From Mycobacterium sp. BK086 (GTDB taxonomy: Bacteria > Actinomycetota > Actinomycetes > Mycobacteriales > Mycobacteriaceae), in contig SNWL01000008.1 of assembly GCA_004362315.1 (NCBI GenBank), positions 186,001 through 250,000 on the forward strand: a DNA stretch of 64,000 bases, read 5' to 3'. This document shows, piece after piece, positions 14,655 through 48,617 of this stretch. The notes beneath the pieces were generated by a model that was given only the letters and a program-made list of their open reading frames with translations, did not search any database and was not told the origin of the DNA. Position numbers and translations under genes: made by a program. Numbering within the stretch: position 1 is the stretch's first letter; each line of letters starts with the position of its first letter.

Positions 14655-15190
14655 GAGACCTCCTCCGATTCGGTTGCCGCAGGACGCCATTCGGAGTCAC
14701 GCTCGAACGCGGCGATCAGTAGCCGTTCCAGCTGAGCCATCTGCCGATAGAACCGCTCCACCGAGCGTTCGTTTCCGACGTCGAGCACATGCACGTAGAC
14801 CAACCGCCTGGCCTGGTCGATCTCCAACACGATCGTGCCGGGGGTCAGGTTCATGATGTTGACCGCCAGCGCCAGCACCAGGTCGGACTTCAGCGCCAGG
14901 TGTCCGCGCAGCACCGCCGACAACGGTGGACGTCCGGGGCGGATCGCCAGCCACGCCACCTGCACCGAGGATTGGGCCAGCCACCACGCCACGTGCAGCG
15001 CCAATCGCAGCAGCGACAGTGGGTGCAGCCGGCCCTGCACCGGGACCGACGGCAATGGCAGCAGCAGCGTGATCCCCAGTGCGACCACCACACCCGAGAG
15101 CACGTTGGCCACCGACACGGTGCCCCACAGCAGCACCCACACCATGGTCAGCCACGCCAGAATCCAGATCCGCAGCGTCCACTTCCTCAT
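14651..15190 (-). CDS. mnhE: Mrp/Mnh antiporter subunit E
   Basis: The 179-residue protein matches MnhE: two N-terminal membrane segments (ILAWLTMVWVLLWG and VLSGVVVALGITLLLPL), then a soluble part with the conserved LTPGTIVLEIDQARRLVYVHVLD (core LTPGTIVLEID). It is required for assembly or function of the Mrp complex in other bacteria. It overlaps both neighbours by 4 bp. Confidence 0.92.
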   Translation of the reverse strand: MRKWTLRIWILAWLTMVWVLLWGTVSVANVLSGVVVALGITLLLPLPSVPVQGRLHPLSLLRLALHVAWWLAQSSVQVAWLAIRPGRPPLSAVLRGHLALKSDLVLALAVNIMNLTPGTIVLEIDQARRLVYVHVLDVGNERSVERFYRQMAQLERLLIAAFERDSEWRPAATESEEVS

Positions 15191-16788: not shown

Positions 16789-17255
16789 CGCGACCCCTCA
16801 TGGCCGGGCAGCGCGTCGAGCTCGTCGGGCTCGTCGGTATCGCGCTCGGCCACGGGCTGGGGGACGTCCTCGTCGACCGAGGAGGCTTCCTCGTCGGAGA
16901 GCTTCGAGACGCGGGTGTCCTCCGGGTCGTTGCTCACTTCCTCCTCGGTGGTCAACCGGAACGAGCGGTAGGTCAGCGCCAGGATGAACGCGGCGATCCC
17001 CATCGCGATGACGATCGCGGTCAGGATCATCCCCTGGGCCAGCGGATCGGCGGTTGTCGTCTCCGACCCACTTGTCCGGCCGCGGATCGGCGGGTTCCCG
17101 GTTTCCCCGCCGACGGTCAGGATCAACAGGTTGACGGCGTTGCCCACCAGCAGCAGGCCCAGCAGCATGCGGGTCAGGTTGCGCGAAAGCAGAAGGTACA
17201 CACCACAACTGGTGAGACCGCCGATGATGACGAGCGGAACGAGGTAGACGATCAT
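16785..17255 (-). CDS. mnhC: Mrp/Mnh antiporter subunit C
   Basis: The 156-residue protein is NuoK-like with three membrane segments: GLTSCGVYLLLSRNLTRMLLGLLL and VGNAVNLLILTVGG are the conserved parts. It also has an acidic hydrophilic tail of about 45 residues (ending near DELDALPGHEGSR) longer than in many MnhC proteins. It overlaps mnhA and mnhD by 4 bp. Confidence 0.93.
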   Translation of the reverse strand: MIVYLVPLVIIGGLTSCGVYLLLSRNLTRMLLGLLLVGNAVNLLILTVGGETGNPPIRGRTSGSETTTADPLAQGMILTAIVIAMGIAAFILALTYRSFRLTTEEEVSNDPEDTRVSKLSDEEASSVDEDVPQPVAERDTDEPDELDALPGHEGSR

Positions 17256-30898: not shown

Positions 30899-33622
30899 GT
30901 GCCAATCCTCCTGACCGGGCAGGCGCCCGGTGATCAGATGCGCACGCTGGCAGGCGGCAAAGCACACAACCTGTGCGACCTGACCGCGGCCGGCTTTCCC
31001 GTGCCGACGTGGGCGATCCTCGGAACCGAAGCCTTCGAGGCCGCTGTCGCGGCGGCCGGGCTGAGCATCAGCGAGGCACCCCTCACTCTGGCCGATCGCC
31101 TTCGGGAAGCGGCATTCGCAGAAGCAGCGTTGAGCGAATTCGTCATGACCGCCGAAATTCGAGACGCGATTCAAGCGGCATTGGATTATGTGGGTGCCGA
31201 GACGGTCGCGGTGCGCTCATCGGGTCGGCAAGAAGACGGGGATCGGGATTCGTTCGCGGGACTGTTCGACACCTATCTCAACGTCGTTGGTCTTGACGCC
31301 ACCGAAGACGCTGTCCGGCGTTGCTGGGCCTCGGCCTTCTCGCAACGAGCAACGCAATACCGTCACACCCGGGGCCTGGACTTCCGAGATGTCGCTCTGG
31401 CGGTCATCATTCAGCGATCACTGCAACCAGTGAGCAGCGGCGTGATGTTCACCGCGGACCCGCTGACGGGTTCATCGGACCGGGTGGTCATCAACGGTGT
31501 ACTCGGGCTCGGCGAGGGTTTGGTCTCGGGCACCGTCGACTCGGACTCCGTCGCCATCGACAAGAGCAGCGGCGCAGTCATCGAGGAGACGATCGCCACC
31601 AAGGAGCAGATGGTGGCCGGAGTGGCCGGGGGTGGAATCAGCACGGTCGACGTTCCTGTTGAACGACAACGCGATTCCAGCGTCGGCTCTGCTCTGCGCG
31701 CGACCCTGTTCGATCTGGGGACTCGGCTGGAACAGCATTTCGGGGCGCCCCAGGATGTCGAATGGGCCTGCGACGACACATCCACCTGGATACTGCAGTC
31801 CAGGCCGGTCACCACCCTCGATCGCCACATCGCCGACACCGCTGAACATTTGGGCGAAGACGTGGCTCTCGACGAGGTCCGCATCTGGGACAACTCGAAC
31901 ATCATCGAGAACTTCGCAGGAGTCACGTCGCCGTTGACGTTCACCACGGCCCGCAGGCTTTACGGCGACGTGTACCGCGCCTATGCACGCAGCTTGAAAG
32001 TTCCTCCCGCGCAACTGGAACAAATGGAGTCGTGGCTGCCGGTGATGCTCGGCCAGTTCAACGGCAACGTCTATTACAACCTGCTGCACTGGTACCGGAT
32101 GGTGGGCATCGCGCCGGGGTACTTCCTGAATCGCCGCGTCCTGGAAGTCGCGCTCGGCGTCAGCGAGACCCTCGACCGCAAGACGGCAAAAACACTACGT
32201 CCCTTCACCTTTGCCAATCCGCTCGCCCGCGTCCGGTCCCGGGTTCGCACGACCCTCCACTACGCGCGCAGCATCGCGGCCATCGACACCCTGGTTGCGG
32301 ACTTCGACGAGACCTTCGTCGAATTGATCGACCGGCACGGCTTGATGGACGTCTCGGCGATGGACGGGCCTTCTGCCTACCGGAAGTTCCGCCAGATCCA
32401 CGACGAGGTCGCCGAACTCTGGGGCCCGTTGATGGTCCTCGACGCGATCCTGTTGACGTTGGTCGGATCGCTGGCGGTGCTGACGAAGGTGCTGTTGCGC
32501 GACGCGCCCGAGTGGGTCCAGTTCGCGATCGTCAACCCGGAGCCGGACGTGATCTCCGTCGAACCCGCCAAGGCGTTGGTGGACATCGCCGCCTTCGCGC
32601 GTGAGCATCGCGAGCTCGACGAGTTCATCGGCTCCGTCGAACCCGCCATCGCCTACGCCCGGCTCGCCGAGTACGCCGCCGACTCCGAGTCGCCGATGTG
32701 GAAGGAACTGCTCGGCAAGATCGACGCGTACATCGACAAGTTCGGCTACCGGTGCCTCGACGAACTCAAACTCGAGGCGCCCGATCTGCGGCAGGATCCC
32801 GCGGGGATTTTTCACATGCTGCGGATGGCCTCTGCCGAAGAGCGGGTGAAGACCGGGGATTCCGCCGAGGATTATCTCGACGCGCATCTCGGTGGCCGGC
32901 GCCGACGCGTCTTCGACGCGCTACGCCGAAAGATTCAGCGAGCGGCCACCCACCGCGAACACCTTCGCTTCTGCCGCACCCAGGGTTTCGGCATCTTGAA
33001 ATCGCTTGCCGCGGTGATGGGTCGGGATCTGGAGGAACGAGGAACGGTCGGCAGTCGCACCGACATCTTCCAGTTGCGCATCGACGAGTTGTTCGCTGTG
33101 TACGAAGGCACGATGCCGGTGGCGGACGCGCAGACCGCTATTCGGCGGCGCAAGCTCCTCCACGACAGCTATACGCAACTCGCGGCGCCTGCCCGCTTCA
33201 CCACGACCGGATCGCGCTACTCAGACCAGGAGCTGGCTGCCGCCGGCTGGCGGCCGTCCGAAGACTCAGGACATGCGCCGGCCGGGACGGTGCTCACCGG
33301 CACGCCGTCCAGCCCGGGAGTGGTGACCGGCCGCGCGGTCGTCGTCGAAAAGCCGCAGGATTTCTCCAGTGGCATCCTCGTGGCCTACCGGACCGATCCG
33401 GGGTGGGTGGCGGCTCTGCCGTTCGCCTCGGCGCTGCTCATCGAACGCGCGTCACCGCTCACTCATGTGGCGATCATCGCCCGCGAACTGGGTGTGCCGA
33501 CCGTGGTGCAGATCGACGGGCTGACCAGTGCGGTTCGCACCGGGATGACGATCAGTGTGGACGGCGCCAGCGGCCGCGTCGTTCTGTTGGAAGAGCCCCT
33601 TCTGGAAGAGCCGACGCCATGA
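30899..33622 (+). CDS. PEP-synthase / rifampicin-phosphotransferase-like enzyme
   Basis: The 907-residue protein has an N-terminal ATP-grasp PEP/pyruvate-binding domain: KAHNLCDLTAAGFPVP (~21-36), VRSSGRQEDG (105-114), GLGEGLVSG (203-211), QSRPVT (300-305). A ~450-residue central helical domain follows. The extreme C-terminus is the swivelling phosphohistidine domain, with SPLTHVAIIARELGVP and H856. No PEP/pyruvate TIM barrel follows. This order (ATP-binding, central, His) is that of rifampicin phosphotransferase rather than PEP synthase, so it probably transfers the ATP beta-phosphate to a small molecule (inference). GTG 30899 is used. It opens the cluster and overlaps the next gene by 4 bp. 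Confidence 0.82.
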   Translation: MPILLTGQAPGDQMRTLAGGKAHNLCDLTAAGFPVPTWAILGTEAFEAAVAAAGLSISEAPLTLADRLREAAFAEAALSEFVMTAEIRDAIQAALDYVGAETVAVRSSGRQEDGDRDSFAGLFDTYLNVVGLDATEDAVRRCWASAFSQRATQYRHTRGLDFRDVALAVIIQRSLQPVSSGVMFTADPLTGSSDRVVINGVLGLGEGLVSGTVDSDSVAIDKSSGAVIEETIATKEQMVAGVAGGGISTVDVPVERQRDSSVGSALRATLFDLGTRLEQHFGAPQDVEWACDDTSTWILQSRPVTTLDRHIADTAEHLGEDVALDEVRIWDNSNIIENFAGVTSPLTFTTARRLYGDVYRAYARSLKVPPAQLEQMESWLPVMLGQFNGNVYYNLLHWYRMVGIAPGYFLNRRVLEVALGVSETLDRKTAKTLRPFTFANPLARVRSRVRTTLHYARSIAAIDTLVADFDETFVELIDRHGLMDVSAMDGPSAYRKFRQIHDEVAELWGPLMVLDAILLTLVGSLAVLTKVLLRDAPEWVQFAIVNPEPDVISVEPAKALVDIAAFAREHRELDEFIGSVEPAIAYARLAEYAADSESPMWKELLGKIDAYIDKFGYRCLDELKLEAPDLRQDPAGIFHMLRMASAEERVKTGDSAEDYLDAHLGGRRRRVFDALRRKIQRAATHREHLRFCRTQGFGILKSLAAVMGRDLEERGTVGSRTDIFQLRIDELFAVYEGTMPVADAQTAIRRRKLLHDSYTQLAAPARFTTTGSRYSDQELAAAGWRPSEDSGHAPAGTVLTGTPSSPGVVTGRAVVVEKPQDFSSGILVAYRTDPGWVAALPFASALLIERASPLTHVAIIARELGVPTVVQIDGLTSAVRTGMTISVDGASGRVVLLEEPLLEEPTP

Positions 33623-36600
33623 CCGATACCGAACGCATCATCGGCTGGCTGATGGCCCCGCGGGATGACACCGGGATCCAGCTGGCGACCGACGACGGTG
33701 GCTGGCAATTCGCGAGCTACCGCGAATTGGCCGACCAGGCCCGGCGTATCGCGCGCCAGTTGGTCGACGAGGGCGTGCGCTCCGGCGACGTTGTCAGTGT
33801 CTTGATGCCGACGTCGGATCTGTGCTTGGCAACGCTGTTCGGAGTGTTGGCCGCCGGCGCAACGCTCACCCCGATCGTGCCGCCGATGTTCCAGCACCCC
33901 GACCAGTACACGGCCCATCTGCACGGCATCCTCGGTGCGTCGGGTTGCCGCGCTGTGGTTGCCGCGTCGGGCTTCACCGGCCTGGCACAGCGAGCGCTGC
34001 CCGGCTTGGCCCTGAACCCGAAACTCATCGAGCTGGATCGGGCACCAGACTGTGCACCCATCGACGAATTGGCCGAGCCCGCACCGTCGGTGCTCCTGCA
34101 GATGACATCGGGATCGACGAGTGCACCGCGTGGCGCGAGCATCGGTTGGCACAGCCTGGCCACCAATCTCAATGTGATGGAGGAGCTTTGCGGAATGGCC
34201 GACGGCCAGCTCGGCGTTTCCTGGCTTCCGCTGTATCACGACATGGGGTTGATCGGGTGCGTCTTCCAGGCGATGACCCGGCAACGCAACCTGCAACTGC
34301 TGCGACCCGATCAGTTCGTCCGTGATCCGTTGCGGTGGCTGCGGGCGGCCGCGAACGCAGAGCACACGGCGTCTCCGTCGTTCGGACTGGTCTATGCGAG
34401 TCGCAGGCTCAAGCCGGAAGATCTCGGCGATATCGACCTGTCGGGGCTGCGCACGCTGGTCATCGGCGCCGAGCCGATCAACCCTGCCCATTTGCGTGCC
34501 TTCACGGAACTGACTGCAGGACACGGTTTTTCGCCCGCCGCATTCATGCCGTCCTACGGTCTGGCCGAGCACACACTGTTCGCCACCTCGCACCGGCTTG
34601 GCGAGGCGCACCGGATGGTCCGGGTGGATAGATCCGCGTTGCGTCATGGTGAGCCGATACGGGTGCTCGCCCGGGTATCGGACTGTGTGACAGACCAACC
34701 CGGCGACGACTGGGTGGTGTCGTGCGGTACGGCCGCGCCGGGTCACGAGGTGTGGATCGCCGACGAGTCCGGCGCTCGGCTGCCGGACGGGACGCTGGGG
34801 GAGATCGTTCTGTCGGGCCCGTCGGTGGCGCTGGGCTATCACGGGGACGCGGGCAGCACCACCCGGTTCGTCGGGGATGAACTGCGAACCGCGGATGCCG
34901 GGTTCCTCCTCGACGGCCAGCTGCACGTGTTGGGCCGCATGGGGACGAGCCTGAAGATCAACGGGCGCAGCGTCTTTACCGAGGACCTCGACGTGACGAC
35001 CGCGGCCGCCATGGGACTGGCGCCGAGCCGGGTCGTCACCGTCGCGGTCAACGATGCCGGCCAAGCGGGCGTGGCGGTGTTCATCGAACAGGCGGCCATC
35101 GCCCCCGGCATGCTCACCGCAGCCGTCCGGTCGTTGCAGGCGAACGTCGGTGAGGACGCGCCGCTGTGGCTGATCAACGTTCCGCGCGGAGCCCTGTCTC
35201 GGACATCGAGCGGCAAGCCGCGCCGCGCGCACATGTGGCAGCAATGGCGAGCGGGCCAGACGACCGGCGCGGAGCTGCTCACCATCGGCGGTGCCGGACG
35301 GGATCCCCAGCAGCTCGAACGGGTGCGGACGTTGTTCGAGAAGACCCGCGAGCTGGCGGTGATTCCCGACGACGCGACAGTGCATTTCGAGGGTTCCCTG
35401 GCCGAAGGCTTCGGCAACGAGGGATCCGACATCGACTTCCTGCTGCTGGTGCCCGGGGCGAGCAAGCAAGCGGTGATGCCGACGGTCCTGTTCCTGGATG
35501 GTCGCCGGGTCGAGGTGCGCGCCCAGTCGCACGAGCAGGCTCGCAAACGGCTGCTGCGGGTTCGGCGAGCCATCGACACCGGTTCGATCGCCGGTGTGAC
35601 CGAGGACGTGCTGAACCGGGTCCAGCGTTTCCTGCACGGCATTCCGCTGTATACCGGCCCCGACTATGGACAACTCCTCGACATCGTGACCTACGCGGAG
35701 CTGACCACACTGTTGCAGTCATGGTGGCGCCGGCGGGCCGGCGGCTGCCTGCGTCACGCCGCCGCGCTGACCCTCCTCGGTGACGATCGCGAGGCGGTCA
35801 CCTGGGCCCGAGAAGGCCTGGCGCAGAACATGAAGGCCTTTCTCGCCGCGCACGGCGAGGGCTATATCGAGATCAAATGGCTGCCCGAGCAGATCGCGCG
35901 GCTGCGAAAGGTCGCCGACCAGAGCGTGGCGGCCCTGCTCGAGGAATACCAGACCCTCGATGCCACCCAGACGCCGGCGAGCCGGGACTTCATCGAGCGA
36001 GCCCTGGCACTGTCGGTGCGATTGGGCGGGCCCAGGATCACGCCGGATCCCGCCAACGTGCTGCTGCGGCGCGCACCCGGGGTGACCACCTGGCCCATCG
36101 GCTCGGCCCCGCACGTCGTGCGTGACAAGAACGACGTGTTCATGCTCTCGGCGCCGTGCGCACAGTCGTGGGGGAATGTGGTCTTCGGCCAGTCGATCGC
36201 GGACACCAAGGCTGCCCACCAACACATTCGGCTCTTCGTCCACTACGGCCTGATCGGCCTGACCTGGCGCGGTGCGGGCCAGATCACGCCGGTGTCGGCG
36301 ATGTGCACACCCGGCCGGCCGCTGACGCCGCTACCGTCGGGCCGACGCCCGGTTGTCACGATCGACGGTGCCTTCACCGACCAGGACATCGCCCGATCTC
36401 CGCTCAACGCACGGGCTTTCGCCGAATGTGCGGGCGCATTGCTGGTAGCCAACATGGTGCTGGAGAACGCACGCGAGGATTTCTACGGAGCGGTCAAGAA
36501 CGGCCAGTGGCAGGTGACATCGCTGTGCGGACGCCGCATCGTCATCATGGCGGTCCGGATATTGGCCAGCGCCTGGGGAATCACCCCGTTGCCGTCGGAT

Positions 36601-36936
36601 CCGGTGCTCCTGCACCAGCTCGACATGCTCGTCCCCGAGCATCCTCAGATCGCGGCAACCGCCCGCCGGCTCAGCGAGCTGTCGGTCGGCGATCACGACG
36701 AAGCCTGTTCCGCCCAAAGGGAACTCGATGCGCTGGTTGCCGAGGTTCGAGAGGTCACCTGCGGAGCCCAGTTCCCGTCGTCGTTCTCGTCCCGAGACGA
36801 GTGGCAACGCACCATCCGGTACGGGTACCAGTGGCTGCGGCTGGGCGGATATGTCGATGCCTACGTCGAACTCGACGAAACCCGCGACCTGCTCAGCACG
36901 GGGGGCGCACAACCATCGGAGAGGCGGGCGCCATGA
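33619..36936 (+). CDS. Fatty-acyl-AMP ligase fused to a nucleotidyltransferase domain
   Basis: The 1105-residue protein has two recognisable parts. Residues 1-545 are an ANL-superfamily fatty-acyl-AMP ligase: A3 loop TSGSTSAPRG (163-172), YHDMGLIG (206-213), PSYGLAE (311-317), catalytic K533 in SSGKPRR. Residues ~570-720 contain a DNA-polymerase-beta-type nucleotidyltransferase core, GS-x9-SDID (G592-S593, D604 and D606), as in aminoglycoside adenylyltransferases. The remaining C-terminal ~380 residues are helical with no clear assignment. The first part should activate a fatty acid and load it onto the adjacent ACP. The second may add an NMP group to a small molecule or protein. I know no characterised protein with this combination. 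Confidence 0.85.
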   Translation: MTDTERIIGWLMAPRDDTGIQLATDDGGWQFASYRELADQARRIARQLVDEGVRSGDVVSVLMPTSDLCLATLFGVLAAGATLTPIVPPMFQHPDQYTAHLHGILGASGCRAVVAASGFTGLAQRALPGLALNPKLIELDRAPDCAPIDELAEPAPSVLLQMTSGSTSAPRGASIGWHSLATNLNVMEELCGMADGQLGVSWLPLYHDMGLIGCVFQAMTRQRNLQLLRPDQFVRDPLRWLRAAANAEHTASPSFGLVYASRRLKPEDLGDIDLSGLRTLVIGAEPINPAHLRAFTELTAGHGFSPAAFMPSYGLAEHTLFATSHRLGEAHRMVRVDRSALRHGEPIRVLARVSDCVTDQPGDDWVVSCGTAAPGHEVWIADESGARLPDGTLGEIVLSGPSVALGYHGDAGSTTRFVGDELRTADAGFLLDGQLHVLGRMGTSLKINGRSVFTEDLDVTTAAAMGLAPSRVVTVAVNDAGQAGVAVFIEQAAIAPGMLTAAVRSLQANVGEDAPLWLINVPRGALSRTSSGKPRRAHMWQQWRAGQTTGAELLTIGGAGRDPQQLERVRTLFEKTRELAVIPDDATVHFEGSLAEGFGNEGSDIDFLLLVPGASKQAVMPTVLFLDGRRVEVRAQSHEQARKRLLRVRRAIDTGSIAGVTEDVLNRVQRFLHGIPLYTGPDYGQLLDIVTYAELTTLLQSWWRRRAGGCLRHAAALTLLGDDREAVTWAREGLAQNMKAFLAAHGEGYIEIKWLPEQIARLRKVADQSVAALLEEYQTLDATQTPASRDFIERALALSVRLGGPRITPDPANVLLRRAPGVTTWPIGSAPHVVRDKNDVFMLSAPCAQSWGNVVFGQSIADTKAAHQHIRLFVHYGLIGLTWRGAGQITPVSAMCTPGRPLTPLPSGRRPVVTIDGAFTDQDIARSPLNARAFAECAGALLVANMVLENAREDFYGAVKNGQWQVTSLCGRRIVIMAVRILASAWGITPLPSDPVLLHQLDMLVPEHPQIAATARRLSELSVGDHDEACSAQRELDALVAEVREVTCGAQFPSSFSSRDEWQRTIRYGYQWLRLGGYVDAYVELDETRDLLSTGGAQPSERRAP

Positions 36937-37175
36937 CCGTTCGTGAAGACGTTCTGGCACTGGTCGCGGCAATGGCACCCGACACCGCCGGCGAGCCGGA
37001 CCTGAACAGCGCCCTGATCGGCGACCTCGGATATACCTCGTTGCGGCTCGTCGAATTGTCGATCGCGGTCGAACGCGCATTTGGGCTACCGCAGCTGAAT
37101 CCAGAGCTGCTCGCCGGCGTGTACACAGTGGGCGATCTCGTCAATCTCGTTGAGGCCCAGAAGGAACGGATATGA
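36933..37175 (+). CDS. Acyl carrier protein
   Basis: This is an 80-residue protein with the ACP helical pattern and the phosphopantetheine site LGYTSLRLVEL, with S36 as the modified serine (the usual D-S-L reads T-S-L here). It overlaps both neighbours by 4 bp (ATGA), between the FAAL fusion and the thioester-reductase-like protein. This implies that the FAAL loads acyl groups onto it and that the other enzymes act on the tethered chain. Confidence 0.9.
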   Translation: MTVREDVLALVAAMAPDTAGEPDLNSALIGDLGYTSLRLVELSIAVERAFGLPQLNPELLAGVYTVGDLVNLVEAQKERI

Positions 37176-38227
37176 GTGCGGGCACGGGCATTCTGATCAC
37201 GGGCGCCGCCGGACACGTCGGCACCGACGTCGTCGCCCGCCTGTCCCGGCGCGGGCGCAGCGTCATCGCACTGACGCACGATCGGGCGGTCGCCGGCGCG
37301 CGACCGGTCAAAGGGGATGTCCGGCGCGAGGATCTCGGCCTCGACCGGCAGACCGTGTCCGAACTCACCGGTGAGGTCGGCCTGGTGGTGCATTCGGCCG
37401 CGGTCACCGATTTCGGGTTGCCCGAGCAGAGTTACACCGAGCTGAACGTCGACGGAACCGCCAACGCGCTGGCGCTGGCGCGCCGCTTCGATGCGGGCTT
37501 CGTCTACGTCAGCACCACCTACGTGTGCGGCGAGACCGAGGGGACGTTCCACGAGGACCAGCTTGACATCGGCCAACAGTTCAGCAACGACTACGAGCAC
37601 AGCAAGTATCGTGCCGAGCAGCTCGTCCGCGCATCGGGGCTTCGGTCGGTCGTCGTCCGGCCCGGCATCGTGACCGGCGAGTATCGCACTGGAAATACGC
37701 AGGTGTACAAGCACATCTACCAACTGCTCAAGGTGATCGTCGAAGGTAGGTTGCGCACGCTGCCGGGGAACTACGCGGCGACACTGGGGCTGGTCCCGAT
37801 CGGGCATGTTGCCGACGTCACGGTGGCCGCCGTCGAGAGGTTTGCCGAGAACGTCGGGCGCACGTTCCACGCGGTCGGCGCCAATTCCCTGTCGCTGCGC
37901 ACGATTTCCGATGTGCTCGCCGAGTATCCGTGCTTCCGCATCCCCGACTTCGTGCCTCCCGCCACGTTCAGCGAATACGACCTCGACGATATCGAGCGCA
38001 GTTACTACCAGAAGGTCGGGACGCTCTACACGAGCTATCTGCGCCGCCGCCTGGAGTTCGACAGCACCAACACCCGCGAGCGGCTCGGTCTCACGCCGCC
38101 GGCGATCGGACCCGGATACTTTCGCCGTCTTCTCGACTCCTGCTTGCGCACCGGATATCTGGGCCGGCCCGAACCGTCCGTCGCCGAGGTCCTGGCCCGG
38201 CTGCAGGCCGAGAGGAGCCTGGTATGA
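37172..38227 (+). CDS. Extended SDR, thioester-reductase-like
   Basis: The 351-residue protein begins with the extended-SDR nucleotide motif GILITGAAGHVGTDV (GAAGHVG at 11-17). It has VVHSAAVTDFG, an STTYVCG strand and the catalytic pair Y141-x3-K145 (DYEHSK), followed by RPGIVTGE. The pattern resembles carboxylic-acid-reductase/thioester-reductase terminal domains and NAD(P)-dependent epimerases. Beside an ACP it could reduce the acyl thioester to an aldehyde or alcohol, or reduce a keto group; the sequence does not decide. It overlaps the ACP gene and the next gene by 4 bp each. Confidence 0.82.
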   Translation: MSAGTGILITGAAGHVGTDVVARLSRRGRSVIALTHDRAVAGARPVKGDVRREDLGLDRQTVSELTGEVGLVVHSAAVTDFGLPEQSYTELNVDGTANALALARRFDAGFVYVSTTYVCGETEGTFHEDQLDIGQQFSNDYEHSKYRAEQLVRASGLRSVVVRPGIVTGEYRTGNTQVYKHIYQLLKVIVEGRLRTLPGNYAATLGLVPIGHVADVTVAAVERFAENVGRTFHAVGANSLSLRTISDVLAEYPCFRIPDFVPPATFSEYDLDDIERSYYQKVGTLYTSYLRRRLEFDSTNTRERLGLTPPAIGPGYFRRLLDSCLRTGYLGRPEPSVAEVLARLQAERSLV

Positions 38228-39060
38228 CCAGCTCCGATCGCGTCGAAGCGCTACCCGTGCATCAACCGAGCAGGTATGACGCGGATACCTACTTCATCGA
38301 GACGTGTGATGCACTGGCCGCGTTGGACATCGACCGCCACGGGTTCGCGTACGAGAACGGAATACTGCTGCTCAAGCCGGATGCAGCGGTCACCGGGGCG
38401 ATGAAGTCGGCGATCGATTGGCTGGTCGAGCATGACTACCGCATCGTCGGGGCAGCCGCGGTACAACTGACGTATCTGCACCTGCGCGCGCTGTGGTACT
38501 TCAACTGGCACAAGGCAACTTCCGAACGGCGCAAGGTCGCCGATCGACTCGCCGGGCTGTCGCCGTCGCTCGTTCTGGTCGTCCGCCACCCCGATGATGG
38601 GCAGCCGGTTTCGGTTCGGTTGACCGCCGACAAGGGACCGGCCGACCCGGCGCTGCGCAAGCCGGGCGAGCTGCGGCATGCGCTGGCGGCCGGTACCTAT
38701 CTGCTCAACAAGGTGCATACCCCGGATGATCCCGACGATGTTCTGCGGGAACTGAGCATCTATTTTCCGGAACCCACACTCAGCGCCGTGATTTCGGCAT
38801 GCGTCGCCGGCGCCGACGCAACATCGGATGCCGTTCGGATCGTCGACGGCATCGAATCCGGCCTGGAGTGCAAAAGCGGTGACCTCGCCGCCGCACAGGA
38901 TGCGATCTGGCACGGATTTGGTGAGGTCGGTATGGGGGACCGACCTCGAAACGGCGAGGAATGGCTGGCTGCATTGGCCGACGCGGAGAAGCGGGACATC
39001 GGTGTCGATCCGTGGTTTCGGATCGTGGTCGAGTCGTCTTATCTGCCGATGCACCGATAG
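38224..39060 (+). CDS. Nucleoside-diphosphate-kinase-like protein
   Basis: The 278-residue protein is about twice the length of a normal NDPK. The kinase fold is recognisable: ILLLKPDAAV (47-56) for the first strand and LLNKVHTPDDPDDVLRELSIYF (~160-181) corresponding to the NDPK active-site segment, with H165 at the position of the phosphorylated histidine. The usual arginine and GxxxP loops between them are altered (HKATSERRKVADRLAGL). A ~95-residue C-terminal extension has no match. Role in the cluster unknown: it may phosphorylate a pathway intermediate or supply an NTP to the nucleotidyltransferase domain of the FAAL fusion. Confidence 0.75.
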   Translation: MTSSDRVEALPVHQPSRYDADTYFIETCDALAALDIDRHGFAYENGILLLKPDAAVTGAMKSAIDWLVEHDYRIVGAAAVQLTYLHLRALWYFNWHKATSERRKVADRLAGLSPSLVLVVRHPDDGQPVSVRLTADKGPADPALRKPGELRHALAAGTYLLNKVHTPDDPDDVLRELSIYFPEPTLSAVISACVAGADATSDAVRIVDGIESGLECKSGDLAAAQDAIWHGFGEVGMGDRPRNGEEWLAALADAEKRDIGVDPWFRIVVESSYLPMHR

Positions 39061-39075
39061 GAAAGAGACGGAATC

Positions 39076-39996
39076 ATGAACGGAGAAAGCTTTTCTCAGA
39101 CGGTTCGCCGTGAGTTGGTGCACAAGCGGGCCGTCTCCGAAGTGCTGGTCACCTCGGTGGCCGACCAGGACGGCACGTGGATTGTGCACGCCCAGCTGCC
39201 GCGTCAGCACAGTTTCCACACCGACGGGGTGGGACGTCAATGTTCGTACTACGACCCACTTCTCGTTCTGGAGGCATTCCGGCAGGGCTGCATCGCCAGC
39301 AGTCATCTCTTCTATGACGCGCCGCCGGACGCCCGGCACACCGTACGCCTGTACGAACTGTCCGTCGTCGACTTCGACCATTTGCAGCGCGGACCCGAGA
39401 TGCTGGATCTCGAACTGACGATCGTGGTGCAGAAGGAATTCCGCCGCGGCGAGGACCAAGGCGCGGTGCACGGCCTGGAAGTCCGGGCCGTCGCCGCCCA
39501 CGAGGGCACCAAAACGATAGAGCTGGCCGCGGCGTTCAACTGGATGCCGTTGGAGAAGTGGGATCGGATGAGGGCGGGCGCAAGCTGGGACCCGGGCCCC
39601 CAACCCGCTCCGGCTGAAGCCGCGTCAGTGGGTCGGACGCGGACGGAGAACGTGGTGATCGGGGCGCCCGTTCACACTGTCGAGGAACGCTCGGCGACTG
39701 CGCCACTCGTGGTGGACATCGGTCACGCGACACTGTTCGACCATCCCCTCGACCATCTGCCCGGCGGACTGATCATCGAGGCGGCACGGCAGCTGTCGCT
39801 GGCGATCGCCGATACGCGGGCCGAGAGTCTTGTCGGGCCGTCCTGGCTGAAGATCGAATTCCAATCCTTCGTCGAGATGGATGCGGTCAGCAGTGTCGCG
39901 ATGACCCAGGACGCCGCCGAGCCGCTGACGTTCCGCGGCGACATCACACAGTCCGGAAATACCAGGGCCACCATCGAATTGGCCTTCATGGAATGA
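39076..39996 (+). CDS. AfsA-type gamma-butyrolactone synthase (double hot-dog)
   Basis: The 306-residue protein has two AfsA hot-dog repeats. The first starts at ELVHKRAVSEVLVT and contains YYDPLLVLEAFRQ (residues ~59-71). The second contains DHPLDHLPGGLIIEAARQ (~218-235), the family hallmark. Characterised AfsA/ScbA proteins join a beta-ketoacyl-ACP to dihydroxyacetone phosphate in butyrolactone signalling-molecule synthesis. GAAAGAG lies just before ATG 39076, after a 15-bp gap. No ArpA-type receptor gene is visible nearby. It overlaps the UbiA-like gene by 4 bp. Confidence 0.88.
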   Translation: MNGESFSQTVRRELVHKRAVSEVLVTSVADQDGTWIVHAQLPRQHSFHTDGVGRQCSYYDPLLVLEAFRQGCIASSHLFYDAPPDARHTVRLYELSVVDFDHLQRGPEMLDLELTIVVQKEFRRGEDQGAVHGLEVRAVAAHEGTKTIELAAAFNWMPLEKWDRMRAGASWDPGPQPAPAEAASVGRTRTENVVIGAPVHTVEERSATAPLVVDIGHATLFDHPLDHLPGGLIIEAARQLSLAIADTRAESLVGPSWLKIEFQSFVEMDAVSSVAMTQDAAEPLTFRGDITQSGNTRATIELAFME

Positions 39997-40904
39997 CCGT
40001 TCTGCGGCGCACGACCGGCATCGGCGCATTCCTGGTCGAACGGTGCCTGCCGGTCTATCCCATCTACCTGGCGTTGTGGGTCGTCGCGGTCGAGTGCCTG
40101 ATCGTCGTGGTCGGGCACTCCTCCGGCCCGTGGCATCCGTCCTGGGATACCGCGCTGAAGATCCTGGCGCTCAACGCCGCAGGGGCGTTCCTGCGGATGG
40201 TCGACGACCAGAAGGACCTCGACTACGACACGGCGTACAACCCGGACCGCCCGCTGGTTCAAGGTCGGATCAGCACTCGCGAGTTGCGAGTCGCGATGGT
40301 GCCGGCCGCCCTGATCGCGTTGGCGCTGGGAGCGGCGGTATCGGTCTGGACGGCCGCGTTCGTGGCGCTGATCCTGGGCTACAGCCTTCTCGTCTGGTGG
40401 GCGGAGTCCCGCGTTCAAATGGTGCGGGACAACCCGATCGTCAACCTGATCGCGGTGTGCCCCGCACAGTTCCTGGCGACGGGTTTCGCGATGACGGGTC
40501 AGCCGGGAGTCGGCGATGCGTCCTGGCTACGGCTGGCGCTGATCCCGCTGGTGTTCACCGCCACGATCTTGCATGTGGAATTGGCGCGCAAGACCACTCG
40601 GACGGCGGATGCCGACGATCTGCGCTCGTATTCACGAGTCATCGGACCGACGGCCAGCGGGGTCTCGGTGTTGATGCTCGGCCTGGGCGCGGTGCTTCTC
40701 GAAGTGCTGCTGAGCGCGCCGTGGAACTGGACCGGTCCCTGGTGGCCCGTTGCCTGGCTCCCGCTCGTGGCCGCCGTGCTGCCATGCATCTCGGCGTGGA
40801 CCTTCTTTGTCACACGGGTGAGCGTCCACCCGCGCGGCCTGCCAACGGCTTTCGTGATCGTCTTCTATCTCGCCATCCTCGGACAGGGCTTGGTCTACCA
40901 CTAG
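39993..40904 (+). CDS. UbiA-family membrane prenyltransferase
   Basis: The 303-residue protein has about eight or nine membrane segments and the first UbiA Asp-rich motif, D71-D72-x2-D75 in LRMVDDQKDLDYDT, followed by NPDRPLVQGRIS as in the family. The second motif is less clear (TADADDLRSYSR). Such enzymes move a polyprenyl or similar group from a diphosphate onto an acceptor at the membrane. Its start overlaps the afsA-like gene stop by 4 bp, so it is in the same pathway. Donor and acceptor are unknown. Confidence 0.85.
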   Translation: MTVLRRTTGIGAFLVERCLPVYPIYLALWVVAVECLIVVVGHSSGPWHPSWDTALKILALNAAGAFLRMVDDQKDLDYDTAYNPDRPLVQGRISTRELRVAMVPAALIALALGAAVSVWTAAFVALILGYSLLVWWAESRVQMVRDNPIVNLIAVCPAQFLATGFAMTGQPGVGDASWLRLALIPLVFTATILHVELARKTTRTADADDLRSYSRVIGPTASGVSVLMLGLGAVLLEVLLSAPWNWTGPWWPVAWLPLVAAVLPCISAWTFFVTRVSVHPRGLPTAFVIVFYLAILGQGLVYH

Positions 40905-40917
40905 AAAGGTACATACT

Positions 40918-42201
40918 GTGCGGATCCTCATACCACTGGTCGGCAGTCGCGGTGACGTCCAGCCCGGGGTGGCGCTTGGTCTGGAGCTCGAACGCCGCGG
41001 CCATGATGTGATCGTCGGTGCGCCACCGAATTTCGTCGACTTCGTCGCCAAAGCCGGCCTGACCGTGCGCCAATTCGGCCCGGACGTGCACGCGCTGTAT
41101 TCCTCTCCGGAGGGCCAGCGGGCGCTGGCGGCGGGCAGCACGTTCAAGTTGATGTCGATGGTGTCCAAGCAGATGTCGGAATACGCCGACCGGATGGACG
41201 ACGAACTGATCGAGATCTCCAAGGGCGTCGAGATGATCGTGTGCACCACGTTCAGCGAGGACCGCTCGGCGATCATCGCTGAGTCCCTGGGCATCCCGAT
41301 GGTGACCCTGCATACCTATCCGTGCCGCAAGAACAGTCACTACGCGCCGCCGGGATCGGTGCCGGTCAACTGGCGAGTTCCCGGTGTTTTCACCCGGGTG
41401 GCCTGGGCCGCGATCGAGCGACTGCGGACGGTGGTTTTCGGGAAGTACCTCAACAACCTTCGCACCAAGCTCGGCCTGAAGCGATCATGGGCCAGCACCG
41501 AATCGATTCTGATTCAACGGAATGTCCCCGAGCTACAGATGTACGACCCGGCTTTTGTGCCGGGGCTGGCCGAGGAGTGGGGCTCGTCGCGGCCCATGGT
41601 CGGGTTCCTGTGGTTGCCGCAGTCGGCCCGGGCGGCGATCGGCGAGTCGGCTGAGGCGCATACCGAGGTACTCCAGTGGGTGAATGAGGGAACGCCGCCG
41701 ATCTTCTTCGGCTTCGGCAGCATGCCCATTCTGGACTTCGGATTGGTGCTCGGCATGATCGAGCAGATCTGCGCCAGGACGGGTGAGCGGGCGCTGGTCA
41801 GTGTGGGCGGTGCGAGCCTCGACCCGAGCCTGCGGAACACCTCGGCCAGCGTGAAGGTCGTCGATGCGTTGGCGCACGATCTCGTCTTCCCGCATTGCAA
41901 GGCGGCGGTCCACCACGGTGGGATAGGCACTCTCTTCGAGAGCCTTCGGGCGGGGCTGCCGACACTGGTCTGCTCGGTATCGTTCGACCAGCCGGTGTGG
42001 GGACATCAGGTGGAGAAGCTCGGGGTGGGTGCGCATATTCCGTTCACCAAGTTGGCACCCGACACCCTGAGCGCGGGCATCGATGCCGTGTTGGACCCCC
42101 AGATGCGTTCCCGGGCAGAGGCTTTCGGCGCACGCCTGCAGTCGACCGGCGACGGCGTGCCGCGGGTCTGCGACATCGTCGAGAAGACGGCTGCGCGCTA
42201 A
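40918..42201 (+). CDS. Family 1 glycosyltransferase (MGT/UGT type)
   Basis: Starting at GTG 40918 with AGAAAGG upstream, this is a 427-residue GT-B enzyme. The N-terminus is the typical RILIPLVGSRGDVQPGVALG; the nucleotide-sugar pocket reads HHGGIGTLFESLRAGLP followed by SFDQPVWGHQVEKLGVG. It is similar to sterol, macrolide and glycolipid glycosyltransferases. It should attach a sugar to the cluster's lipid product. It is the last gene of the plus-strand run and overlaps by 4 bp the stop of the convergent P450 gene. Confidence 0.9.
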   Translation: MRILIPLVGSRGDVQPGVALGLELERRGHDVIVGAPPNFVDFVAKAGLTVRQFGPDVHALYSSPEGQRALAAGSTFKLMSMVSKQMSEYADRMDDELIEISKGVEMIVCTTFSEDRSAIIAESLGIPMVTLHTYPCRKNSHYAPPGSVPVNWRVPGVFTRVAWAAIERLRTVVFGKYLNNLRTKLGLKRSWASTESILIQRNVPELQMYDPAFVPGLAEEWGSSRPMVGFLWLPQSARAAIGESAEAHTEVLQWVNEGTPPIFFGFGSMPILDFGLVLGMIEQICARTGERALVSVGGASLDPSLRNTSASVKVVDALAHDLVFPHCKAAVHHGGIGTLFESLRAGLPTLVCSVSFDQPVWGHQVEKLGVGAHIPFTKLAPDTLSAGIDAVLDPQMRSRAEAFGARLQSTGDGVPRVCDIVEKTAAR

Positions 42202-43535
42202 CCGGGGCGGCGAGGCGAGAACACCACCGGCAGCGATGCCGGCGACAGGACGAAATCCTTGGCCTGTGGCTTGACGGTGAAGTCGGCGGGCAGCCGGATA
42301 TCCCACCGGGAGAACAGTGCCGCGGCCTGCAGGGTGATGGACAGCAGCGCGAATTGGCTTCCGGGGCAATGCCGCTGACCCAGTCCGAACGCCATCATGA
42401 CGTCACGATCACCCGACCCGGACTCCCAGCGGTCGGGGTCGAACGTCGCCGCATGGGGAAAATACTGGTCCTGCAGATGCACCATCAACGGGCTGAACAG
42501 GATGTTGGTGCCGTCCGGAAACTCCGCAGAGCCGATCCGTACCGGGCCGTCGGACGTGAGGATGCTGATCCACGGTGCCCACAGACGCAGAGTCTCATTC
42601 AGCACATTTCGGAGATAACTCAAGGCGGGCACGTCGCCCACTTCCACAGGGCGAGAACCGATTACCGAATCCAGCTCGTCGCGGATCTTGGCTCCGATCT
42701 CGGGTGCGCGACTTGTTTCGTAGACGAGCCAGGAGAAGATGGACGTCTGCGACCCGATGCTCGCGGCAAGTGAGAGGAGCAGCTCGTCGACGAGATTGTC
42801 GTCGGACAGCGTCGCGCCGGTCTCTTCGTCGACGTGGTGCAGCAGGGCCGACAACATATCGCCCTCGTCGGGTTCATGGCGCCGGCGTTCGATGAGTGAG
42901 CGCAGTGCTGCGCGGACCTGTCGGGAATGTGCGATGAATCGCCGGTTGGCCAGCACCCGTAACTGTCGAGCGATCTTGGGCAGGGCACCGCGAATGATGA
43001 CTTCGCTGAGCAGCCAAGGTGTTCGCTCACGAATGACATCGATCTCGTCGGCATCGGACTCGGCGCGGAACAGCGTCGCCAGCATGGTCCGCATCACCAG
43101 CTCGTGCACGCTGGAGCGCAGATCGGCCTGAGCGCCACTGGCAAGCGAGCCGGCCCAGTCGTCGGCAATTGCCGCGACGGTGACCCCGTACTCGGTGAGA
43201 CGGCGTTGCCGGAAGACGGGAGCGATCAGCCTGCGGCGCAGGTCGTGTTCGGGGCCGCTGAGCACATTGGTCGCGCCGCTGACCAATTCGTGGATGGCCT
43301 CGCGCATCGGCTCGCGATGGAACGCTCCCGCGCGCCCGAGGCTGACGTCCCGGATGAGATCGGGCGTGGTCAGCATGTACGAGGCCTGTGGCCCCAGATA
43401 GACCCGGACGATGGGACCGATCTCAGGGGCGCGCAGCAGCAGCTCGCGAGGATCGCCCGTGACCATGTGGGCGTGGCCGATGAGTGGCAGACGCCCTGGC
43501 GCCGTGGGTATTTGAGACAAGCCGGTTTGGCTCAT
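42198..43535 (-). CDS. Cytochrome P450
   Basis: The 445-residue protein has the heme-binding motif FGLGQRHCPG (383-392) with C390 as iron ligand, and ExxR as E314-T-L-R317. The I-helix position that normally carries an acid-Thr pair reads G-S-Q-T (Q263, T264), so the usual acid is replaced by glutamine. P450s with this change may have altered oxygen activation. It is convergent with the glycosyltransferase gene and probably modifies the cluster product, but it could be independent. Confidence 0.93.
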   Translation of the reverse strand: MSQTGLSQIPTAPGRLPLIGHAHMVTGDPRELLLRAPEIGPIVRVYLGPQASYMLTTPDLIRDVSLGRAGAFHREPMREAIHELVSGATNVLSGPEHDLRRRLIAPVFRQRRLTEYGVTVAAIADDWAGSLASGAQADLRSSVHELVMRTMLATLFRAESDADEIDVIRERTPWLLSEVIIRGALPKIARQLRVLANRRFIAHSRQVRAALRSLIERRRHEPDEGDMLSALLHHVDEETGATLSDDNLVDELLLSLAASIGSQTSIFSWLVYETSRAPEIGAKIRDELDSVIGSRPVEVGDVPALSYLRNVLNETLRLWAPWISILTSDGPVRIGSAEFPDGTNILFSPLMVHLQDQYFPHAATFDPDRWESGSGDRDVMMAFGLGQRHCPGSQFALLSITLQAAALFSRWDIRLPADFTVKPQAKDFVLSPASLPVVFSPRRPG

Positions 43536-45248: not shown

Positions 45249-45461
45249 CCCTGGGACTCCTCTCCGGTCGAGATGGACTCTAGCCCAAGCACATCCGCTT
45301 GCGCATATCGATCCGGCGTGTCGGCGGACCCGAGAAAGTTCTCGGCGTCGCGTCGATATTCACCCGGCCCGTCGGGTGCGTCAATTGACCCGTCGCCAGT
45401 GCTCGACCGCCTATGCTTGGCGGGTCGGGTGCCCGGGGGTCCCCGGGTTGGCGGTGCTGAC

Positions 45462-48400
45462 ATGACGGCGGCAGCTTGCGTGGCGTGCGGTACAACGCTG
45501 CGCGAGTCCGCGAAGTTCTGCGACGAATGCGGCGCGGCCGTGCCGGCCAGCGCCGCTCCCGCCGAGTACAAACAGGTGACGGTGCTGTTCGCCGATGTCG
45601 TGCACTCGATGGACATCGCCGCGGCGGTGGGGGCCGAGCGGCTTCGCGAAATCATGACCGCACTGGTCGATCGCGCCGCACGGGTCGTGCAGCGCTACGG
45701 GGGCACTGCCGACCAATTCACCGGCGACGGCTTGATGGCCCTGTTCGGCGTCCCAGTCGCGCTAGAGGATCACGCGTTTCGCGCCTGCTTGGCCGCGCTG
45801 GAGGTTCAGGAGGAATCGAAGGTCCTTGCCGAGGAGGTTCGCCGACGCGACGGTGTCGAGCTACAACTGCGGATCGGGCTGAACTCCGGCGAAGTGATTG
45901 TCGGCCAGCTCGGAGCGAGCCCATTCGGCCGTACTGCGGTCGGCGAGCAGGTTGGGATGGCGCAGCGCATGGAGTCGGTTGCCCCACCCGGCGGGGTGAT
46001 GTTGAGCCAGTCGACAGCGCGGCTGGTCGAGCACGGCGCCATCTTGGACGGCGAAGAAAAGGTCCGCATCAAAGGTCGTGACAGTCCGGTTCTCGTGCGC
46101 CGGCTGCGCGGAGTCAGTGCGCAACGCGGCGACACCGGCCGGCAGGAGACCGCGTTGGTCGGGCGTGGGCAGGAGGTCGCCACGCTGACCGAGATCCTCG
46201 ACCGGGCGATCGCGGGAACCGGTGGCGTCGTGGGGATCGTCGGCGCGCCCGGAATCGGCAAGAGCCGGCTGGTTCGCGAGACCGTGGCACGGGCCAACAC
46301 GCGTGGTGTCGCGGTGTTCTCGACCTTCTGCCAATCTCACACGCGCGATATCGCGTTTCATGCCGCGGCGGGGCTTTTACGCGCGGTCTTCGACACCGAT
46401 GGTCTACCTGGGGGCGCCGCGCGCGAACGAGTGCGCACGCGCCTGCCCGATGCCGATGCCGAGGATCTGGTTCTGCTGGACGACCTGCTGGGTATTCGTG
46501 AGGCTGACGTCGAGCCGGTCGTGATCGATGCTGATGCCCGACGTCGGAGGCTGACCCGCTTGATCAGGTCTGCCGCGCTGGCACGCCGCACGCCGACTCT
46601 GTATGTCATCGACGATGTCCATTGGCTCGATGAGGCCAGCGAATCGATGCTCGAGGAATTCGTCTCGGTGCTTCCTCGGACGCATTCACTGGCGCTGTTC
46701 ACTTATCGGCCCGAGTATCACGGAGCGCTGGCGCGCACGGCCGGCTCGCGGACCATCAGCATCGTCCCGCTCGACTCGTCGGACACCGCAGCGCTGACAG
46801 CGGCGCTGCTCGGTGAGCACAGATCGGTCGCCGGGCTCATGTCGCAGGTCGCCGAGCGCTCCGGCGGTAACCCGTTCTTCACCGAGGAGATCGTGCGCGA
46901 TCTCGTCGAACGTGACGTGCTCAGCGGGAGCGCCGGCTCCTACATCTGCCACCTCGACTCGGCGCATGTGACGGTGCCCGCCACCGTCCAAGCCACCATT
47001 GCGGCCCGCATCGACCGCCTCGGCCGCGCGGCAAAACGCACACTGCACACGGCAGCGGTGATCGGTTCCCGGTTCGTACCCGATCTGCTCTCCCGGGTGG
47101 ACGGGCGGTCGGCGCTTGCCGAGCTGGTCGATGCCGATCTGGTCGACCTCGTTCCCGGGTCGCCGCATGGTGAGCATGCGTTCCGGCACCCGTTGATTCG
47201 CGCGGTCGCCTACGAATCCCAACTCAAAGCTGACCGTGCGGTGTTGCATCAACGCGTGGCCGAGGCGATCCAGCAGGACGATCCTGCGGCGGACGACGAG
47301 AACGCCGCGCTGATCGCCGGCCACCTCGAAGCTGCTGGGGACGTGCGCGCCGCGTTCGACTGGCACATGCGCGCGGCGGGCTGGCTCATGACCCGTGACA
47401 TCCGCGCCGCCAAGACGAGTTGGCAGAAGGCCCGTGATGTCGCCGACCAACTGCCCGCCGACGAGCCGGGCCGCCTCCCGATGCGGATCGCCCCGCGCAC
47501 GCTGCTGTGCGGCTTCGCGTGGCGTGCCGGTGGCGAAGCGAGTGTTGCCGACACCGGCTACGACGAACTGCGGGAACTCTGTTTGGCGGCCGGCGATCAG
47601 ATGTCATTGGTCATGGGCACCTCAGGACTGCTGGTTGCGATGGGCCTCAACCATCGACTCGCCGAATTGCAGTCGCTCACACCGGAATACATTCGCTTGC
47701 TCGAGTCGACGGGTGATCCTGCACTGCTGTTGCTCTCGAACTGCGCGACCTTCGGTGTATTCCAGGCAGGCGCTATCGCCGGGGTGATGCCGCTGTTCCA
47801 ACAAGCAATCGACGCTGCGGACGGCAACCCCACGCTCGGCAACTTCTTCTTCGAATCGCCATTGGCGTGGGTGACGACGCTGCGCGGGCTGGCTCGGAGC
47901 AGCCTCGGCGACCCGAACTGGCGGGACGATCTGCGCGATGCGCTGACGATGGCACGCGAGGTGGGCGGCATGACCCAGGCCTCGGTCGTCACCTACGGCT
48001 ATGGCGTTGCTCTCCTGAACGGCACCCTGGTGCCGGACGCGACGACTTTGGAGCATTCCGCTTTCGCTCTGGACGCCGCGGAACGATCCGGCGACGACGT
48101 GTCACTGGCCTGGTCGCGAGTCAGCCACGGCATCATGCTGATTCGTTCGCGCGACGGCGACTCCGCAGGCGGGCTCGAACTGCTCAGGACCGGTCGCCGG
48201 CAAGCGGCGGGTCATGCGGATCTGCTCACGGTCACGATGGCCGACGTCCAACTCGCCGAGTGTGAAGCGCGCAGTGGCGACCTGGATGCGGCCATCGAGA
48301 TCGCGGCGCCGACGGTCGCGCATTGCTTCGCTAGTGGCGAAGCCATCTTCCGCGGACCCGCGGTTGCCGTACTGGCGGATGCGCTGTTGAGCCGCGGAAC

Positions 48401-48617
48401 CGCGCAAGACATGCAGGACGCCCGGAATGTGGTCGACCGGTTGGCCGCGAGCCACGCGGATCCGGGCTTTGTGTTCTACGAGCTGCCGCTGCTGCGGCTG
48501 CGCGCCCAGTTGGCGCGCGTCCGTGGCGACGAACAGGCATACCGAGAACTCGCGGACCGCTATCGGGCGATGGCGACGTCCGCCGGCTTTGAAGGGCACA
48601 TCGCGTCGGCCCGTTGA
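45462..48617 (+). CDS. Class III nucleotide cyclase domain with zinc ribbon, AAA ATPase and TPR-like repeats
   Basis: I use ATG 45462 (MTAAACVACG); the frame is open much further upstream but only antisense to other genes. The 1051 residues comprise: a zinc-ribbon C6-x2-C9...C20-x2-C23; a class III cyclase domain (~36-215) with metal ligands D45 and D89; an AAA_16-type ATPase (~232-500, Walker A GAPGIGKSR at 261-269, Walker B LYVIDDVHW); and a long helical repeat C-terminus. The purine-specifying lysine position reads Q85 and the transition-state asparagine reads G165, so activity is uncertain. Rv0386-type relatives end in a LuxR helix-turn-helix; this one does not. Confidence 0.88.
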   Translation: MTAAACVACGTTLRESAKFCDECGAAVPASAAPAEYKQVTVLFADVVHSMDIAAAVGAERLREIMTALVDRAARVVQRYGGTADQFTGDGLMALFGVPVALEDHAFRACLAALEVQEESKVLAEEVRRRDGVELQLRIGLNSGEVIVGQLGASPFGRTAVGEQVGMAQRMESVAPPGGVMLSQSTARLVEHGAILDGEEKVRIKGRDSPVLVRRLRGVSAQRGDTGRQETALVGRGQEVATLTEILDRAIAGTGGVVGIVGAPGIGKSRLVRETVARANTRGVAVFSTFCQSHTRDIAFHAAAGLLRAVFDTDGLPGGAARERVRTRLPDADAEDLVLLDDLLGIREADVEPVVIDADARRRRLTRLIRSAALARRTPTLYVIDDVHWLDEASESMLEEFVSVLPRTHSLALFTYRPEYHGALARTAGSRTISIVPLDSSDTAALTAALLGEHRSVAGLMSQVAERSGGNPFFTEEIVRDLVERDVLSGSAGSYICHLDSAHVTVPATVQATIAARIDRLGRAAKRTLHTAAVIGSRFVPDLLSRVDGRSALAELVDADLVDLVPGSPHGEHAFRHPLIRAVAYESQLKADRAVLHQRVAEAIQQDDPAADDENAALIAGHLEAAGDVRAAFDWHMRAAGWLMTRDIRAAKTSWQKARDVADQLPADEPGRLPMRIAPRTLLCGFAWRAGGEASVADTGYDELRELCLAAGDQMSLVMGTSGLLVAMGLNHRLAELQSLTPEYIRLLESTGDPALLLLSNCATFGVFQAGAIAGVMPLFQQAIDAADGNPTLGNFFFESPLAWVTTLRGLARSSLGDPNWRDDLRDALTMAREVGGMTQASVVTYGYGVALLNGTLVPDATTLEHSAFALDAAERSGDDVSLAWSRVSHGIMLIRSRDGDSAGGLELLRTGRRQAAGHADLLTVTMADVQLAECEARSGDLDAAIEIAAPTVAHCFASGEAIFRGPAVAVLADALLSRGTAQDMQDARNVVDRLAASHADPGFVFYELPLLRLRAQLARVRGDEQAYRELADRYRAMATSAGFEGHIASAR

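Follow-up and report, generated by a model that had tools for sequence, protein, structure and literature searches.

A salinipostin-like gene cluster with glycosyltransferase and P450 genes in Mycobacterium sp. BK086

Genes and protein families at the locus

The window analyzed here, a stretch of 64,000 nucleotides from Mycobacterium sp. BK086 (contig SNWL01000008.1, positions 186,001 to 250,000 of the forward strand), contains a compact cluster of eight genes at 30899–42201, all on the plus strand, and a cytochrome P450 gene that converges on the last of them with a 4-bp overlap. An earlier note on this DNA, made from the sequence alone, had described eight tightly spaced plus-strand genes, and its coordinates proved exact: the junctions comprise five 4-bp overlaps and gaps of 15 and 13 bp (−4, −4, −4, −4, +15, −4 and +13 bp in gene order). 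The protein families that it named were borne out by Pfam and NCBIfam. The features are as follows.

30899..33622, plus strand: PPS, a PEP-synthase-like phosphotransferase of 907 residues with an ATP-grasp, a central domain and a C-terminal phospho-His domain
33619..36936, plus strand: FAAL-NT fusion, with FAAL in residues 1 to ~550 and a kanamycin-nucleotidyltransferase-like domain (NT) plus a HEPN-like bundle in ~550–1105
36933..37175, plus strand: acyl carrier protein (ACP), 80 residues, Pfam PP-binding
37172..38227, plus strand: TR, a thioester-reductase-like extended SDR of 351 residues, Pfam NAD_binding_4
38224..39060, plus strand: NDPK-like protein with a C-terminal extension, 278 residues, Pfam NDK
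39076..39996, plus strand: AfsA/ScbA-type butyrolactone synthase, 306 residues, Pfam AfsA
39993..40904, plus strand: UbiA-fold membrane transferase, 303 residues, Pfam UbiA
40918..42201, plus strand: GT, a GT1-type glycosyltransferase of 427 residues, putatively for tailoring, Pfam EryCIII-like_C/Glyco_transf_28
42198..43535, minus strand: cytochrome P450, 445 residues, a probable tailoring enzyme, Pfam p450

PPS matches the Pfam families PPDK_N and PEP-utilizers, aligns to structure 5fbs at both ends and scores 894 bits against the PEP synthase model NF004881 (cut-off 883). The fusion protein matches the Pfam families AMP-binding and NTP_transf_2; its FAAL part resembles known FAAL structures (best 3pbk, 2.6e-59), and its NT part, for which the structure model has a mean pLDDT of 89, matches ANT(4') enzymes and contains the motif EGS.AEGFGN..SD.D, invariant in 24 rows. 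Active-site positions are conserved at ≥98% in PPS (H856, 70 rows), ACP (S36, 67 rows), TR (Y141 and K145, 71 rows) and UbiA (D71, D75 and D79, 71 rows). For these four alignments, proteins shorter than 80% of the length of the window protein were excluded, as were L048–L057, L122, L123, L078, L093, L111, L044 and L096, and some genomes are counted twice (L038–L047 plus their named copies). For TR, NAD_binding_4 was the best of five Pfam matches, and TIGR01746 stayed under its cut-off. The NDPK-like protein retains K51, N162, H165 and E176 in all 11 aligned members, which we take to be the catalytic Lys, Asn, His and Glu of NDPK; its score against the equivalog model NF001908 is only 27.7 (cut-off 155), hence the designation NDPK-like, and its substrate may be other than a nucleotide. 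AfsA likewise falls below the cut-off of NF041195 (ScbA/BarX, the classical A-factor type), with 171.5 bits against 200.

Three more specific assignments were rejected. PPS and GT resemble enzymes of rifampicin inactivation, but the scores lie far under the cut-offs (for PPS, 311.6 against 999 for the rifamycin phosphotransferase model NF041857). A prodigiosin-type ligase was discarded for PPS (RedH, 346 against 1350; PigC, likewise far under), as was a pentalenene oxygenase for the P450 (201 against 800).

Kinship to the salinipostin cluster and conservation of the block

The earlier note recognized no characterized pathway with this set of genes and made its novelty depend on there being none; the set is, however, that of spt, the salinipostin cluster of Salinispora tropica. 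PMC7888443 gives spt as RS20900–RS20940, 11.1 kb. Genome G256 contains an operon of nine overlapping genes (L047:2024–13073, 11.05 kb) in the order PPS, FAAL, NT, ACP, TR, NDPK, UbiA, a luciferase-like gene (Pfam) and AfsA, which fits spt of S. tropica CNB-440 in gene number and length and is taken as such here. This operon was reportedly tied to salinipostins by Kudo and co-workers (2020), and the phylogeny of the salinipostin cluster is, by its title, the subject of Creamer and co-workers (2021). A paper citing Creamer 2021 states that butyrolactone gene cluster homologs are reported across 12 phyla.

The spt set (PPS, FAAL, NT, ACP, TR, NDPK, AfsA and UbiA) is complete and contiguous in the window, with identities to the G256 proteins of 43% for PPS, 39% for FAAL, 37% for NT, 43% for ACP, 46% for TR, 39% for NDPK (over 182 residues), 32% for UbiA and 28% for AfsA. 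The luciferase-like gene is present in L047 and absent between AfsA and UbiA in the window, so the window cluster is spt-like rather than spt itself. When five genomes were searched with PPS, the operon copy was the sole match in G256 (734 bits); in G849 the copy within the cluster reached 679 bits, far ahead of the runner-up at 155. In a PPS tree with five paralogs, the 15 cluster PPS proteins, including those of S. tropica and G849, form one clade (98/94, and 98% of bootstrap trees). AfsA gave a single match in each direction between the window genome and G256. Trees were built for PPS, AfsA and NDPK. The relationship to spt can be regarded as secure for PPS and for the set of genes as a whole, but not for AfsA and NDPK, whose trees do not place S. 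tropica with the other cluster members.

The gene order was also sought in other actinobacterial genomes, as the earlier note had proposed; of 66 named loci, 60 have the seven core genes (PPS to UbiA) in a single order on one strand. As these loci had been chosen by the NDPK-like gene alone, the shared arrangement marks the block as more than a chance association; together with the protein families, it agrees with the note's view of one unitary pathway that joins acyl activation and AfsA butyrolactone chemistry with phosphate and nucleotidyl chemistry. The 60 complete loci comprise 11 mycobacterial, 48 Nocardia and one Tsukamurella locus (L122, with genes in broken pieces); among the named loci, L060 of Mycolicibacterium rhodesiae DSM 44223 carries the same cluster. 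Of the remaining six, L070 and L123 run off their contigs, and the Nocardia loci L078, L093, L111 and L096 are missing genes in the middle of the block. These four keep PPS (shortened in L078 and L093) and NDPK and have lost genes between the two, perhaps by decay or as a reduced pathway.

At a threshold of E 1e-20 or better, the NDPK-like gene occurs in 18 of 396 same-genus genomes, all 18 of which carry the seven core genes. The class-level sample yielded it in eight of 394 genomes, three of them outside the family (G849, G968 and G1075). G849 (L151) carries PPS, a stand-alone NT, TR, NDPK, AfsA, UbiA and, at the end, a nitroreductase-like gene, read from its first residues.

The cluster sits between moeA and groEL (26903–50363 of the window). 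Three cluster-bearing genomes have 19.2–22.2 kb between the two genes, against 3.2–16.5 kb for 15 genomes of the genus that do not carry the cluster; of 41 same-genus genomes searched, 25 were used, 18 with both genes on one contig and seven with moeA and groEL on different contigs or with no groEL match. Because its content varies, the slot appears to be a place where genes come and go, and not a clean empty site. Beside the cluster, 45264–48614 (plus strand) encodes a protein with guanylate-cyclase and AAA ATPase parts (best NCBIfam match TOMM_kin_cyc, under its cut-off). Mrp-type Na+/H+ antiporter genes lie at 15187–20146 (minus strand).

Predicted pathway and rival explanations

Gene content, gene order, the kinship of PPS and of the gene set to spt, and the conserved active-site residues are directly established. 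On this basis we consider it likely that the locus is a salinipostin-type cluster for an enol-phosphotriester butyrolactone that is then hydroxylated and glycosylated. The pathway type is fairly secure; the product, each single enzyme step and the order of the steps we infer. FAAL and ACP would load a fatty acid, and TR would reduce the loaded acid toward a long-chain alcohol. AfsA, whose family joins a β-ketoacyl thioester to dihydroxyacetone phosphate (DHAP), would thereby form a butenolide phosphate, which an ene-reductase encoded outside the cluster would saturate. PPS would phosphorylate the enol of the β-keto lactone, in the way that PEP synthase acts on pyruvate, and the NT domain and the NDPK-like protein would activate the phosphate. 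The UbiA-fold membrane protein, which may transfer an alkyl chain instead of an isoprenoid one, would attach the alkyl chain to give a bicyclic enol-phosphotriester butyrolactone, to be hydroxylated by the P450 and glycosylated by GT.

Several observations weigh against this reading. L047 is equated with spt through its agreement in number of genes and in length, and no named record links the two. The outgroup branches of the PPS tree are long and were flagged with a warning, and NF004881 would label PPS a plain PEP synthase. The 23-row AfsA tree groups neither Spt9 nor the G849 protein with the mycobacterial and Nocardia AfsA; on the 24-row NDPK tree two changes are required to account for the cluster members, a weakly supported fork (81/57) sets S. 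tropica apart, and no more than 16% of bootstrap trees recover a single origin of the cluster NDPK. NDPK relatives without the core occur in ten order-level stretches (L048–L057), and the G968 and G1075 stretches (L152 and L153) hold an NDPK-like gene and no other core gene; the NDPK family is thus wider than the cluster. In the examined G849 stretch no FAAL or ACP match was found although TR is present, which weakens the role assigned to TR; among the three FAAL-NT queries, one had been taken from L047 by reading a single frame across two genes, so that its second half is no true protein, and the other two were sound. UbiA has no confident relative among solved structures. Finally, the window cluster contains no ene-reductase; candidates of the kind that a butenolide pathway would need occur in related clusters, as a nitroreductase (at least 30 of the 48 complete Nocardia loci) or a luciferase-like protein.

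Among the stretches with NDPK relatives, those of G040 (L051 and L052) hold three NDPK-like matches within ~16 kb, with ACP-like and TR-like genes in L051, an NT-like gene in L052 (hmmsearch 4e-16) and neighbors that by eye look EPSP/MurA-like and thymidylate-kinase-like; they possibly belong to another phosphate-activating pathway.

It is doubtful that the locus consists of two units, a seven-gene spt-like core and an unrelated GT–P450 pair. Several otherwise complete clusters are without GT and P450, and the P450 gene lies on the opposite strand; against this, both genes are found in 15 of the 18 same-genus clusters, GT following UbiA and the P450 converging on GT, and of the 48 complete Nocardia loci at least 20 have a GT homolog, and at least 25 a P450 homolog, in the neighborhood of the core. 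GT is present in 29 of the 60 complete named loci. It is not a core gene: three same-genus clusters (G032, G331 and G690; L066, L065 and L067) are without it, and neither the Salinispora operon nor the stretch examined in G849 gave a match. ABC transporter genes adjoin these three clusters, but genes related to the ABC membrane protein are likewise found close to certain Nocardia clusters that do have GT (L069, L079 and L099), so ABC genes and GT are no strict alternatives. Further families near the complete Nocardia loci are a P450–GT4 fusion (at least 25), the nitroreductase and an O-methyltransferase (at least 27), each named from one member; all Nocardia family counts are lower bounds, because each stretch was limited to 10 kb or cut off where its contig stopped. 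In L043 (12555–15110, minus strand), a Nocardia locus, a homolog of the window P450 forms a single protein with a GT4 glycosyltransferase, which precedes it. Upstream of PPS, the minus-strand families F7, F8 and F9 keep their place in 48, 47 and 38 Nocardia loci; by eye they look ESX-related, but a partial F9 protein gave no Pfam match.

An ordinary A-factor-like butyrolactone signal, with the phosphate enzymes handling DHAP-derived phosphate and no phosphotriester formed, is unlikely. AfsA is present as this would demand, and spt is itself reported to yield plain butyrolactones as well. Making such a signal takes AfsA together with a reductase and a phosphatase, however, and five extra genes (PPS, FAAL-NT, ACP, NDPK and UbiA) are kept in 60 of the 66 loci. 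Somewhat less likely still is an envelope glycolipid, close to the earlier note's view, in which an acyl-lactone would be prenylated by UbiA and glycosylated like mycobacterial glycolipids: the 12 GT matches in the own genome (GT itself included) and the ABC transporter genes beside the three GT-less clusters would suit it, but GT is non-core, UbiA also belongs to the Salinispora set, and salinipostins are described as alkyl esters, without prenyl groups, in the available part of PMC6681047. The note's glycosylation is retained as probable, and its prenylation stays conjectural.

Compound class and comparison with known systems

The enol-phosphotriester butyrolactone predicted here belongs to the same chemical class as cyclophostin and the cyclipostins of Streptomyces (PMC6681047, seen in part). 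On how the phosphotriester arises, the passages of that review examined offer no more than a proposed shared origin with butyrolactones, and they describe no glycosylated cyclophostin or cyclipostin member. Among the literature matches listed, we found no gene cluster for cyclophostin or the cyclipostins, no title naming such a cluster in mycobacteria, and no studied product of such a cluster from a mycobacterium; the full texts of Kudo 2020 and Creamer 2021 stand outside this search. The pathway type is already known, as the salinipostin cluster makes unusual phosphate-containing butyrolactones; the novelty appears to lie in the form of the cluster found in mycobacteria and Nocardia, with its GT and P450, and in predicting the compound class for these genera. 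The phosphate-activation module of enol kinase, nucleotidyltransferase and NDPK-like kinase was not found described in the passages of the literature examined.

Natural members of the class are reported to inhibit Mycobacterium smegmatis, M. phlei and a Nocardia, and analogs have been studied against mycobacteria, with covalent attack on serine and cysteine enzymes (both in PMC5603573), yet these genera carry the genes. We tentatively suggest that enol-phosphotriester lactones bearing hydroxyl and sugar groups are made by some mycobacteria and by many Nocardia. They would be covalent inhibitors of serine hydrolases, of this same class, perhaps kept in masked form as glycosides or directed against kin, and would be built via a PEP-synthase-like enol kinase, a nucleotidyltransferase and an NDPK-like kinase. 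If they do, self-protection, signaling or competition with kin become testable, and the conserved module supplies single enzymes for working out how the phosphotriester is assembled.

The individual proteins resemble known systems in part. The NT domain shares 12–17% identity with kanamycin nucleotidyltransferase ANT(4'), but here it precedes a HEPN-like bundle and is fused to a FAAL. PPS has the build of rifampicin phosphotransferase and PigC/RedH, ATP-binding domain first and phospho-His domain last, yet scores far beneath the cut-offs of those families. With A-factor/ScbA-type synthesis the cluster has an AfsA-family synthase in common, although this synthase remains under the NF041195 cut-off and the cluster adds many phosphate enzymes. 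The closest counterpart is spt of S. tropica CNB-440, with the common order PPS, FAAL, NT, ACP, TR, NDPK, plus UbiA and AfsA, at 28–46% protein identity. In spt, FAAL and NT are separate genes, UbiA precedes AfsA with the luciferase-like gene between them, and neither GT nor P450 has a match at the operon, whereas in the window FAAL and NT form one fused gene, AfsA is followed by an overlapping UbiA, and both tailoring genes are present.

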